In this document: positions 3,410 to 56,749 of the stretch, one piece after another
How the letters are laid out: each line of letters opens with the position of its first letter
Position numbering within the stretch: position 1 is the first letter of the stretch
The notes under the pieces: generated by a model
Told to the model about the DNA's origin: nothing
The model's input: the letters and a program-made list of their open reading frames with translations, nothing else
Database searches by the model: none
Source: Terriglobia bacterium
GTDB lineage: Bacteria > Acidobacteriota > Terriglobia > Acidiferrales > UBA7541
Assembly (NCBI GenBank): GCA_020072785.1
Contig: JAIQGG010000002.1
Coordinates: 744,001-808,000, forward strand
Length of the DNA: 64,000 nucleotides
Reading direction: 5' to 3'
Program-made: the position numbers and the translations under genes

Positions 3410-3940
3410 ATGCCGATAAAGCTCAAACGCTACTACGGACGCGGGGATTTGCATTTTCTTACCTTCAGTTGTTACCGGCGGCTGCCGCTGCTGAGGACGA
3501 TTCGTGCGCGAAACGTGTTCGTGCACGCACTGGGAAAGATACGCGAGCGGCATAAATTTCTGCTGGTGGGATACGTGGTGATGCCAGACCACGTGCATCT
3601 TTTGATCAGCGAGCCGCCGAAGGTTACGCCCTCGGTAGTGCTGAAAGCGCTGAAGCAGCGCGTCTCACGGGATTTGCGGAGAAACAAACGCCGCATTTCG
3701 ACGGCGCAGTTGCGGCTGCCATTCATGAGCGCTGGCGGCGGGCTGCCGCGATTTTGGCAGCCTAGATTTTACGACTTCAATGTCTACAGCGCGAAGAAGA
3801 AGAGGGAGAAGCTGGAATACATGCATGCCAATCCCGTGAAACGGGGACTGGTGAAAAATCCGGGCGCTTGGATGTGGAGCAGTGCTCTCTTTTACGAGAA
3901 AGGGGAGACCGGATTGGTGCCGATCGATCCGGTGGATTAG
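3410..3940 (+). CDS. rayT: REP-associated tyrosine transposase (RAYT, IS200-like Y1 fold)
   Basis: A 176-residue HUH single-strand nuclease of the Y1_Tnp family. The start MPIKLKRYYGRGDLHFLTFSCYRR matches the usual N-terminal strand, followed by the metal-binding HUH pair in MPDHVHLLI (about residue 70). The C-terminal helix RFYDFNVYSAKKKREKLEYM carries candidate catalytic tyrosines and is followed by the HANPVKRGLV motif typical of RAYTs. I chose ATG 3410 because earlier in-frame codons lie in the hairpin. The gene is bracketed by CACGTG hairpins, as expected for enzymes that act on REP/REPIN sequences. A solo copy of its right flank lies at 6321-6464. All expected motifs are present, so it looks intact. 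Confidence 0.9.
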   Translation: MPIKLKRYYGRGDLHFLTFSCYRRLPLLRTIRARNVFVHALGKIRERHKFLLVGYVVMPDHVHLLISEPPKVTPSVVLKALKQRVSRDLRRNKRRISTAQLRLPFMSAGGGLPRFWQPRFYDFNVYSAKKKREKLEYMHANPVKRGLVKNPGAWMWSSALFYEKGETGLVPIDPVD

Positions 3941-6121: not shown

Positions 6122-6257
6122 GGCCGGGCTAAAGCCCGGCCGCTACATAGGAAAGAGCGCATAGGAAAGAGGGCAGAAGGAGAGGCAAGAAGAGGTGCGA
6201 AGAGCAGGCGGCCGTCGAAAAGCAAGAGAAAGCCGCAGGGCGCAGCCCTGCGCTACA
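6122..6257. repeat. Two palindromes ending in GCTACA
   Basis: Two hairpins of a dispersed intergenic type: GGCCGGGCT-aa-AGCCCGGCC at 6122-6141 followed by GCTACA, and CGCAGGGC-gca-GCCCTGCG at 6234-6252 also followed by CTACA. A relative with the same CGGCTACA end lies at 27301-27380. The spacer between them has no gene. Confidence 0.65.
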
Positions 6258-10659: not shown

Positions 10660-10718
10660 TTGGGCGTTGTCGTGCACTCTTTCCCGGCGTAGAATCCGGC
10701 TGATCCTTGTATCGTGGC

Positions 10719-10787
10719 GACCGCCAAGCGGTCAGCTATTTCTGTGACCGCGAAGCGGTCAGCTATCTTTGTGACCGCAAAGCGGTC
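10719..10787. repeat. Three tandem GACCGC-NNN-GCGGTC palindromes, 27-bp period
   Basis: Palindromes at 10719-10733, 10746-10760 and 10773-10787, exactly 27 bp apart, with spacers CAA, GAA and AAA. The same palindrome occurs singly at 22906 and 45099 and doubled, again 27 bp apart, at 56694-56735. It ends 24 bp before the sensor kinase start codon. Confidence 0.9.
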
Positions 10788-10810
10788 AACATGCCCCGCG
10801 CGGGAGAGCG

Positions 10811-22896: not shown

Positions 22897-22905
22897 TTCA
22901 AGTGT

Positions 22906-22920
22906 GACCGCGAAGCGGTC
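22906..22920. repeat. GACCGC-GAA-GCGGTC palindrome between plsY and gpsA
   Basis: A single copy of the 15-bp palindrome seen in tandem at 10719 and 56694. On the coding (minus) strand it begins inside the TGA stop codon of plsY, so the repeat supplies that stop. Confidence 0.85.
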
Positions 22921-23563
22921 AACTGTCCTCGCCGTTCTTGCGGCGGCGCAGCACAAAGCGCGGCTCTTCGCCTGCCAGCAGGCGGCGGATGTTGCCTTCG
23001 TGCTTCCAGATGATCAGCAGCGCGGCCAGCAGCGTGCCGAAACTCACGCTAAGCGGCGGCGCGTGGTGCGGCGCCCAGAAGAGATAGACCAGCAGGGGCA
23101 TGGCTGCGGCGGCGGCGATCGAGCCCAGCGACACGTAGCCCCAGAAAACCACCACGAGGATGAACAGGACGATCGCGGCGCTCATCGCCAGCGGGCAGAG
23201 CACGAAGAAGACGCCCGCGGCGGAAGCCACGCCTTTTCCGCCGCGAAACCCCAGCCACACCGGGAAGCAGTGTCCGGCGATTGCCGCCAGCCCGGCAAGG
23301 ATCATCCAGATGGCGGATTCGCCGGCAAAATGCGCCGCCAGCCACACCGGCAGGGCGCCCTTGGCGGTATCGAGGAGCAGCGTCAGGATGCCCGCGGCGG
23401 CGCCGGCGGCGCGGGCCACGTTGGTCGCGCCGATATTGCCGCTGCCCACGCGGCGCACGTCCTGGCCGCCAAACAGCTTGCCCAGCAGCAGGCCAAAAGG
23501 GATGGAGCCGAGCAGGTAGCCCGCGAGGGGAATGGCCAGGTAGAGCAGGAAAGTGCGGTCCAT
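22919..23563 (-). CDS. plsY: Glycerol-3-phosphate acyltransferase PlsY
   Basis: A 214-residue integral membrane protein with five or more helices. It shows the three PlsY motifs: GYLLGSIPFGLLLGK (about 15-29), GSGNIGATNVAR and the glycine-rich FRGGKGVASAAG. It acylates glycerol 3-phosphate from acyl-phosphate, the first step of phosphatidate synthesis. It is followed by gpsA on the same strand. The stop codon coincides with the dispersed GACCGC palindrome, and the basic C-terminus RRRKNGEDS may be repeat-adjacent rather than ancestral. Confidence 0.96.
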   Translation of the reverse strand: MDRTFLLYLAIPLAGYLLGSIPFGLLLGKLFGGQDVRRVGSGNIGATNVARAAGAAAGILTLLLDTAKGALPVWLAAHFAGESAIWMILAGLAAIAGHCFPVWLGFRGGKGVASAAGVFFVLCPLAMSAAIVLFILVVVFWGYVSLGSIAAAAAMPLLVYLFWAPHHAPPLSVSFGTLLAALLIIWKHEGNIRRLLAGEEPRFVLRRRKNGEDS

Positions 23564-45034: not shown

Positions 45035-45098
45035 CCGCGGAACAGTTTCAGAACCGCCGGGGCGGACGCCAGCACGGCCCGCGAGCCAACCGGGGGTT

Positions 45099-45113
45099 GA
45101 CCGCTTTGCGGTC
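45099..45113. repeat. GACCGC-TTT-GCGGTC palindrome between ftsL and ftsI
   Basis: A single copy of the dispersed 15-bp palindrome, in the same orientation (GTTGACCGC...GCGGTCAC) as at murC, but here 65 bp after the ftsL stop and 64 bp before ftsI. Confidence 0.85.
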
Positions 45114-45177
45114 ACCCAGAATAAGGATGCAAGCGGCGGTGCGCAGGGCAGAAAAACACCGGCCGGCCTGAAACGAC

Positions 45178-55268: not shown

Positions 55269-56695
55269 TGGTCACGTTCCGCAATTTTCAACGCATGCAC
55301 CTGGTGGGCATCGGCGGCATCGGCATGAGCGGCATCGCTGAAGTGCTGCTCACGCTCGGCTATTCCGTCAGCGGCTCGGACACCAGGCCCTCGCCCATCA
55401 CCGAGCGGTTGCGCAATCTCGGCGCGGCCATCTACGAGGGCCACAAGGCCGAAAACGTGGAGGGCGCGCACGTGGTGGTTATCTCTTCCGCGATCAAGGC
55501 GGAGAACCCCGAAGTGGTCGAGGCGCACAAGCACAAAATTCCGGTCATCCCCCGCGCGGAGATGCTCGCCGAGCTGATGCGCCTGAAATACGGCATCGCC
55601 GTGGCCGGCGCGCACGGCAAAACCACCACGACTTCACTCGTCGCCTCCGTTCTCGCTGCGGCGCATCTCGACCCGACTTTCGTCATCGGCGGCAGAGTGA
55701 ACCAGGCGGGCACCACGGCGCGGCTCGGCAAGGGCGAGTATTTCGTCGTCGAAGCCGACGAGAGCGACCGCACCTTCCTGCTGCTGGCTCCGGTCGTCGC
55801 CGTGGTCACCACCATCGACCGCGAGCACCTCGACCAGTACGCCTCGCTCGAGGACATCCAGGAAGCCTTCACGCAGTTCGTCAACCGCGTGCCCTTCTAC
55901 GGCGCGGCCATCCTGTGCCTGGACGAGCCCAACGTGCAGGCCATCATCCCCTGCGTGAAGCGCCCGATCATCACCTACGGCACCTCCAGCCAGGCCGACC
56001 TGGTCATCAGCGACATCGCGACCAGGGATTTGGGCAGCGACTTCCGCCTCACCTACAAGGGCGAGGACCTCGGCCTGTTCCACCTGCCCACGCCCCCGGG
56101 CGTGCACAACGTGCGCAACGCCGCCGCAGCCGCCGCCGTCGCGCTGTATCTCAACGTTCCCTCGGACCTGATCCGCGAGGGCCTGGCCAAATTCGCGGGC
56201 GTGGGCCGCCGCTTCGACATCAAGGGCGTGATCCACGACATCACCGTGGTGGACGACTACGGCCATCACCCCGCGGAAATCAAAGCCACGCTGGACGCCG
56301 CGCGCGGCTGCAAGTTCAGCCGCCTCCTGGTGCTCTTTCAGCCGCACCGCTACTCGCGCACCGAGCATCTCTGGGACGACTTCTGCCGCGCTTTCAACCA
56401 GGCCGACGTCCTGGTCCTCACCGACATCTACGCGGCGGGCGAAGCGCCTATTTCCGGCATCACCAGCGCAGCCCTGGCCGCCGCCATCCGCGGCGCCGGC
56501 CACAAAAACGTTTTCTACTGCGCCTCCCTGCAGGAGGGCATCGAGCATCTGCTGCGCGAAGCGCGGCCCGGCGACGCCATCCTGACGATCGGCGCGGGAA
56601 GCGTCAGCCGCGCCAGCCACGAGCTGGCGCTGCTGCTCGGCGCGAAATATCCGGAGGTTGCGGAGAAATCCGCGAAGCCTCCTGAAGCGCGTTGA
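55265..56695 (+). CDS. murC: UDP-MurNAc:L-alanine ligase MurC
   Basis: A 476-residue Mur ligase. It has VGIGGIGMSGIAEVLL (about 14-29), the ATP loop AGAHGKTTTTSLVASVL (about 114-130), EADESDRTFL, TIDREHLDQY, DDYGHHPAEIKATL and FQPHRYSRTEHLW. It commits UDP-MurNAc to peptide addition. The TGA stop is the first part of a GTTGACCGC palindromic repeat, so the C-terminus is set by that repeat. Confidence 0.97.
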   Translation: MMVTFRNFQRMHLVGIGGIGMSGIAEVLLTLGYSVSGSDTRPSPITERLRNLGAAIYEGHKAENVEGAHVVVISSAIKAENPEVVEAHKHKIPVIPRAEMLAELMRLKYGIAVAGAHGKTTTTSLVASVLAAAHLDPTFVIGGRVNQAGTTARLGKGEYFVVEADESDRTFLLLAPVVAVVTTIDREHLDQYASLEDIQEAFTQFVNRVPFYGAAILCLDEPNVQAIIPCVKRPIITYGTSSQADLVISDIATRDLGSDFRLTYKGEDLGLFHLPTPPGVHNVRNAAAAAAVALYLNVPSDLIREGLAKFAGVGRRFDIKGVIHDITVVDDYGHHPAEIKATLDAARGCKFSRLLVLFQPHRYSRTEHLWDDFCRAFNQADVLVLTDIYAAGEAPISGITSAALAAAIRGAGHKNVFYCASLQEGIEHLLREARPGDAILTIGAGSVSRASHELALLLGAKYPEVAEKSAKPPEAR

Positions 56696-56735
56696 CCGCT
56701 TTGCGGTCACCGAGAACTTTGACCGCTTGGCGGTC
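56694..56735. repeat. Two tandem GACCGC-NNN-GCGGTC palindromes, 27-bp period
   Basis: Copies at 56694-56708 (spacer TTT) and 56721-56735 (spacer TTG), exactly 27 bp apart, filling most of the 54-bp gap between murC and murB. The first begins within the murC stop codon. The same period is seen at 10719-10787. Confidence 0.9.
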
Positions 56736-56749
56736 ACCAAGAACGGCGA

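Follow-up and report, generated by a model that had tools for sequence, protein, structure and literature searches.

Why do two genes of one genome end inside copies of the same short palindrome? In the 64,000-bp stretch of Terriglobia DNA analysed here (the window), the stop codons of murC and plsY overlap the 15-bp palindrome GACCGC-N3-GCGGTC, which raises the question of what is being repeated and how it came to supply stops. Exact copies were found at seven sites of the window (10719, 10746, 10773, 22906, 45099, 56694 and 56721), where shuffled sequences gave an expectation of 0.01. All seven lie where the initial annotation had placed them, at four distant places, and the 27-bp period reported there is exact both at 10719-10787 and at 56694-56735. 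The murC stop (TGA, 56693-56695) is a T followed by the GA with which the palindrome opens, and the stop of plsY (minus strand, 22919-23563) is built from its last TC plus an A. Two of the sites are indeed located among dcw-type genes, where one (45099) separates a DivIC-like gene from a penicillin-binding protein gene and the other (56694) separates murC from murB. The features are listed in Table 1.

Table 1. The 27-bp units and the candidate transposase gene of the window.
Feature	Position	Strand	Remarks
Unit 1 of the murC-murB array	56691..56717	+	27 bp; contains the stop of murC (TGA, 56693-56695)
Unit 2 of the murC-murB array	56718..56744	+	27 bp; followed by GGCGA (56745-56749)
Single unit in the gap between the DivIC-like gene and the penicillin-binding protein gene	45096..45122	+	27 bp; followed by AAGGA (45123-45127)
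Single unit between plsY and gpsA	22897..22923	-	27 bp; supplies the plsY stop; also present in the sister species SRVP_26
Three-unit array, 3' end unit	10710..10736	-	27 bp; array upstream of a histidine kinase gene
Three-unit array, middle unit	10737..10763	-	27 bp; SRVP_26 has one unit at this array
Three-unit array, 5' end unit	10764..10790	-	27 bp
Orphan RAYT (Y1 transposase) gene	3410..3940	+	Candidate trans-acting mover

The 15-bp palindrome that was first taken as the repeat is real, but it is only the core of a larger, asymmetric and oriented unit. Aligning the 67 exact copies of contig C1 and the window (830,580 bp) in one orientation gave the 27-bp unit GTT-GACCGC-TTY-GCGGTC-ACACATACA, which written whole reads 5'-GTTGACCGCTTYGCGGTC-ACACATACA-3'. 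GTT precedes the stem in 55 of these 67 copies, the loop is mostly TTC or TTT, and the GCGGTC arm is followed by AC and then by A-rich variable sequence, the tail being 9 nt long. The core is conserved far better than the tail. A flanking T before and A after the palindrome lengthen the stem to 7 bp around the 3-nt loop, and folded as single-stranded DNA the hairpin has a z-score of about -4.5. The genome holds many further copies: 253 exact cores were counted in its 3,729,688 bp (11 contigs), compared to 5 for a reversed-pattern control, and a weight-matrix scan of contig C1 and the window with a threshold of 14 bits detected 99 copies versus one in the reversed sequence. A chance origin of the window palindromes is ruled out by the shuffles and the reversed-pattern control.

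In 1.07 Mb of the source genome the units form 82 arrays, namely 57 single units, 19 pairs, 5 triplets and one array of five. Same-strand neighbours within 45 bp are spaced by 27 bp in 33 cases, by 26 bp in one and by 31 bp in one, and no opposite-strand pair was present within 90 bp. Judged by the arrangement of the units, a CRISPR or TIGR array was rejected, since such systems have one or a few arrays, with unique spacers and next to effector genes, whereas here most of the dispersed arrays are single units.

Among 36 genomes of the same genus, the unit reaches 253, 237 and 100 copies in three and 0-26 in the rest; hence, three species of this genus carry hundreds of dispersed copies. The genome with 237 copies, SRVP_26, is a Terriglobia MAG of a sister species. 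The 65 other relatives searched (101 genomes in all) have 0-6 copies each. Two cores at 27-bp spacing were found at 61 loci in a scan of 84,980 species genomes. Of these loci, SRVP_26 has 42; another 13 belong to other Acidobacteria MAGs (12 carry the label gp2), and the last 6 are spread over other groups and have different flanks. Relatives of the family are gp2 Acidobacteria MAGs. Viral contigs gave no match to the tandem pattern, and none of four core 15-mers led to a mention of the unit in the open-access PMC papers searched. A Mycobacterium contig (L130 2634-2729) carries four GACCGC-N3-GCGGTC cores spaced 27 bp apart; their linkers are unrelated, and the cores are probably independent of the family. 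At the end of a Saprospiraceae contig (L135 838-931), several copies of the palindrome have longer shared flanks and are in part inverted.

The close relationship of SRVP_26 to the source genome (about 87-92% DNA identity over long matches, 80% in one variable stretch) allowed a comparison of 35 distinct orthologous sites, in which neighbouring sites were merged, so that for example C4:91807 and C64:17239 are not counted separately. Unit number was equal at 9 and unequal at 26. The length change at the unequal sites was exactly 27 bp per unit in 12 and within 1 bp of this in 15; the other 11 depart from a multiple of 27 by more than 1 bp, several of them in DNA that has diverged or been rearranged. 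Of fifteen one-sided sites that were aligned, 9 showed a clean difference of 27 or 54 bp (53 in one). The window itself includes both situations, as SRVP_26 has one unit instead of three at 10710-10790 and shares the unit at 22897-22923. One gain could be polarised: a SRVP_26 gene for a protein with a P-loop motif has acquired nine codons in frame, and the encoded residues YMSDREAVN are absent from the source genome and from six other species. Ten loci entered this comparison, of which two were not readable. Target-site duplications at singleton units were not above expectation. The unit is thus gained or lost precisely in 27-bp steps and without target-site duplication. Together with the 253 copies and the conserved oriented unit, the clean presence/absence differences between two close species support the initial proposal that a defined unit is copied. 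A tail copied from the flank was considered as well and rejected: there was no excess in the source genome, and in SRVP_26 the 2 of 34 four-base tail-flank matches (0.12 expected) are too few.

These observations point to a mobile element. We consider, at a probability of about two in three, that the palindrome forms the centre of a miniature mobile element of 27 bp, non-autonomous and REP-like, which would insert 5' of an RWNGA-like motif and may be moved by a RAYT-type transposase. Alternatively, the units might be old and dispersed and change today only by replication slippage or unequal crossing-over, as in a VNTR, with no ongoing transposition. At many sites, the two species do differ just in how many units an existing array holds, and the tails of adjacent units are on average more alike than those of random pairs, with 3.6 versus 4.4 differences of 9 in the source genome and 2.9 versus 4.4 in SRVP_26. 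Identical adjacent tails occur in 2 of 33 cases in the source genome and in 11 of 69 in SRVP_26. Furthermore, two diverged 27-bp units take turns inside a called gene at C1:522.6 kb (L045 2551-2685, C1:522551-522685), which gives a higher-order repeat with a period of 54 bp. However, purely local change does not agree with clean 27-bp presence/absence at otherwise unit-free sites, including the outgroup-polarised gain inside a gene, nor with a motif right of the array ends (see below). The strict phase is also kept between units with unrelated tails, and many adjacent units have tails that differ as much as random pairs. We therefore regard a VNTR without transposition as an unlikely explanation of the whole family. 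Since adjacent tails are more alike than random and some neighbours are identical, insertion and local duplication both seem to act, and local duplication seems to contribute to part of the arrays.

For the mobile element, the sequence next to the units suggests where insertion occurs. Right of the terminal units, positions 1-5 read R, A/T, any base, G, A (RWNGA). The full motif follows 24 of 63 terminal units, compared to a share of 1.5% among the 5-mers of intergenic DNA. Position 4 is G in 52 of 63, with a background of 29% (43 of 53 when units just before a start codon are excluded). A RWNGA-like signal is likewise present right of the units of SRVP_26, and the left flank shows little signal. 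Nine clean empty alleles, read by eye, have G at position 4 in six (three lack it) and A at position 5 in eight. As G and A are thus mostly present in alleles that lack the unit, the motif is at least partly target and not element. Potentially, insertion takes place immediately 5' of the RWNGA-like motif. The first five bases of the element itself, GTTGA, fit this motif. It is therefore tempting to speculate that a new copy lands directly 5' of an old one by using the old copy's GTTGA, which would give head-to-tail arrays with a period of 27 bp; unequal recombination or slippage might then amplify some of them. A bias of orientation relative to GC skew could point to single-strand transposition; the comparison gave p = 0.013 with 40-kb windows in the source genome, and no effect with 80-kb windows or in SRVP_26.

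The relation of the unit to genes was analysed in contig C1 and the window, with gene positions from a simple custom gene caller. By these calls, 46 of the 67 exact copies fall between genes, 7 overlap the edge of a gene (a stop in 5 cases, a start in 2) and 14 are located inside genes, so that density is about 16-fold higher between genes (53 copies over 159 kb versus 14 over 671 kb). The initial statement that all copies sit between genes holds for the window, where seven of seven are intergenic or on a gene's stop, but not elsewhere. The 14 internal copies are distributed over 7 genes, and 13 of them are in frame and read DR-x-AV. Two of the unit-bearing genes are supported by Pfam and encode a TonB_C protein and a Peptidase_C26 protein. 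The TonB_C protein (L047 14394-16520) has five in-frame units in its linker, three of them, of the VDRFAVTHG type, in tandem, and the number of units differs in SRVP_26.

A TGA and its complement are located at the two edges of the stem, and each strand thus carries TGA in one frame. The two stop-free frames per strand would make the unit tolerable inside genes as nine extra codons. In the remaining frame, insertion near a gene end would supply a new stop, without any need for stop targeting. Targeting of stop codons, which the initial annotation had considered, was not borne out: of the 67 exact copies, 5 supply the stop of a gene, and this is explained by the TGA and its complement at the stem edges. 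In 28 of 28 readable relatives, murC has no unit and a different C-terminal end, and its stop overlaps or abuts murB, which indicates that the murC stop arrived with the repeat. These 28 come from 30 murC loci, of which one is the window itself and another (L104) was not readable. Judging by the sequence of the unit, the stops at murC and plsY are probably by-products of its TGA content.

It might be argued that the hairpins are kept by selection at many genes, as operators for a DNA-binding protein or as functional RNA hairpins. A core far better conserved than the tail, the strong hairpin and the mostly intergenic location would agree with this. Nevertheless, copy number ranges from 0 to 253 within one genus, presence differs at many sites between close species, and copies are found in frame inside genes. 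In contig C1 and the window, the units have no preferred direction with respect to genes (17 same, 15 opposite) and are not in excess in convergent gaps, and Rfam gave no match at the murC site. Selected sites are therefore a very improbable explanation.

As the mover of the unit, we propose an unlinked RAYT-type HUH (Y1) transposase, which may act in trans on the single-stranded hairpin. The source genome has three Y1 genes, and these and the sole RAYT found in SRVP_26, four in total, all pass the NCBIfam RAYT cut-off. The window RAYT, the RAYT at C1:581 kb and the one of SRVP_26 form one clade with 61-67% identity, the window RAYT being 67% identical to that of SRVP_26. These RAYTs are orphans, with no GTAG REPs and no similar hairpin nearby, and their clade also occurs in genomes with few units. 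None of 32 Y1 loci has units flanking a RAYT or other transposase gene; the nearest units lie 1.3-1.5 kb off, at two loci of the source genome (L017 and L018). The number of RAYTs as a predictor of unit number was rejected, with no relation across 36 genomes: one genome (G034) has 15 Y1 hits and a single copy, another (G025) no hit and 26 copies, and SRVP_26 one hit and 237 copies. In a further relative (G026), tandem arrays of a 41-bp hairpin (18 copies) are located on both sides of a RAYT (L081 871-1343 and 2001-2279).

In the accounts of Di Nocera and colleagues (PMC3733652) and in PMC8266576 and PMC2613905, GTAG REPs of the RAYT/TnpAREP group 3, such as SMAG of S. maltophilia, are short dispersed hairpins with a perfect stem, a 3-nt loop and a short 5' tag, which reach high copy number, are mainly intergenic, form tandems at some loci (tandem SMAG arrays, PMC2613905), supply stops and occur inside ORFs. 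All of this applies to the 27-bp unit as well, and with 253 exact cores it is a multi-copy palindromic repeat of 20-40 bp. Stops provided by the ends of REPs and REPs in frame within genes are described in PMC3733652, which treats GTAG and CGTC REPs, so that these consequences are already known. One could ask whether the unit belongs to an ordinary family of GTAG REPs that owes its mobility to a flanking RAYT (REPtron). RAYTs are present in the source genome, and a hairpin with a short 5' tag resembles the group 3 REP of S. maltophilia, described as a 16-nt perfect palindrome with a 3-nt loop preceded by GTAG (PMC8266576). However, the first four bases of the unit are GTTG and not GTAG, no unit flanks any RAYT, and the inverted pairs of GTAG REPs, BIMEs or REPINs are replaced by the 33 same-strand pairs in strict head-to-tail phase, with no head-head dimers. 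Nor does the unit favour 3' positions, whether convergent or unidirectional. Classic GTAG REPs are a different family in the same genome: their stem is GCCGGGC, they have one copy in the window (about 6123-6146, minus strand), and they flank the RAYT at C1:420 kb, the only REPtron of the genome (L017, C1:419114-422428). We give the ordinary REPtron very little credence as a source of the 27-bp units.

Like the CGTC REPs (RPE-4 and RPE-6 of Rickettsia, dRS3 of Neisseria), the unit is palindromic, has no adjacent dedicated transposase gene and has some in-frame copies (PMC3733652). The CGTC REPs listed there (Table 1 of PMC3733652) possess a CGTC tag, a stem of 8-9 bp and a loop of 4-5 nt, and head-to-tail pairs are given as negligible, whereas the unit has a 7-bp stem, a 3-nt loop, no CGTC and close neighbours that are head-to-tail. 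Because it lacks the GTAG and CGTC tags, head-head dimers and a flanking RAYT, we do not assign it to those REP families, though it works like a REP.

In outline, the unit is also similar to transposons that move as single strands. IS200/IS605 elements such as IS608 have a subterminal hairpin, cause no target-site duplication and insert beside a short fixed motif that resembles the element's own end. The unit likewise has a hairpin, shows precise insertion without target-site duplication, and would insert beside a short motif resembling its own end; unlike these elements, it is only 27 bp long and carries no gene. Guide sequences of IS200/IS605-type transposons are treated in PMC8266576, where, for TnpAREP, the tag of the REP is described to serve as guide for cleavage. 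Possibly, then, the unit stands for a new REP-like class whose tag GTTGA doubles as target, and an unlinked, retargeted candidate RAYT (e.g. that of the window, 3410-3940) keeps inserting copies against old ones, a suggestion that we put forward tentatively.

In summary, we regard the family as real, mobile and REP-like, and the proposed mechanism of tandem phase as plausible. REP-like repeats are abundant, and the way they spread has rarely been observed directly. The comparison of two close species offers sites that are cleanly filled in one and empty in the other, together with an insertion motif that can be measured and a simple geometric explanation of the tandem phase, namely a front end that fits the element's proposed target, and the overlap with stop codons and the in-frame peptide insertions are explained without a mechanism aimed at stops. 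If the suggestion of a tag that doubles as target is true, such a class would build phased arrays, spread nine-codon peptides into some genes and give others new stops.
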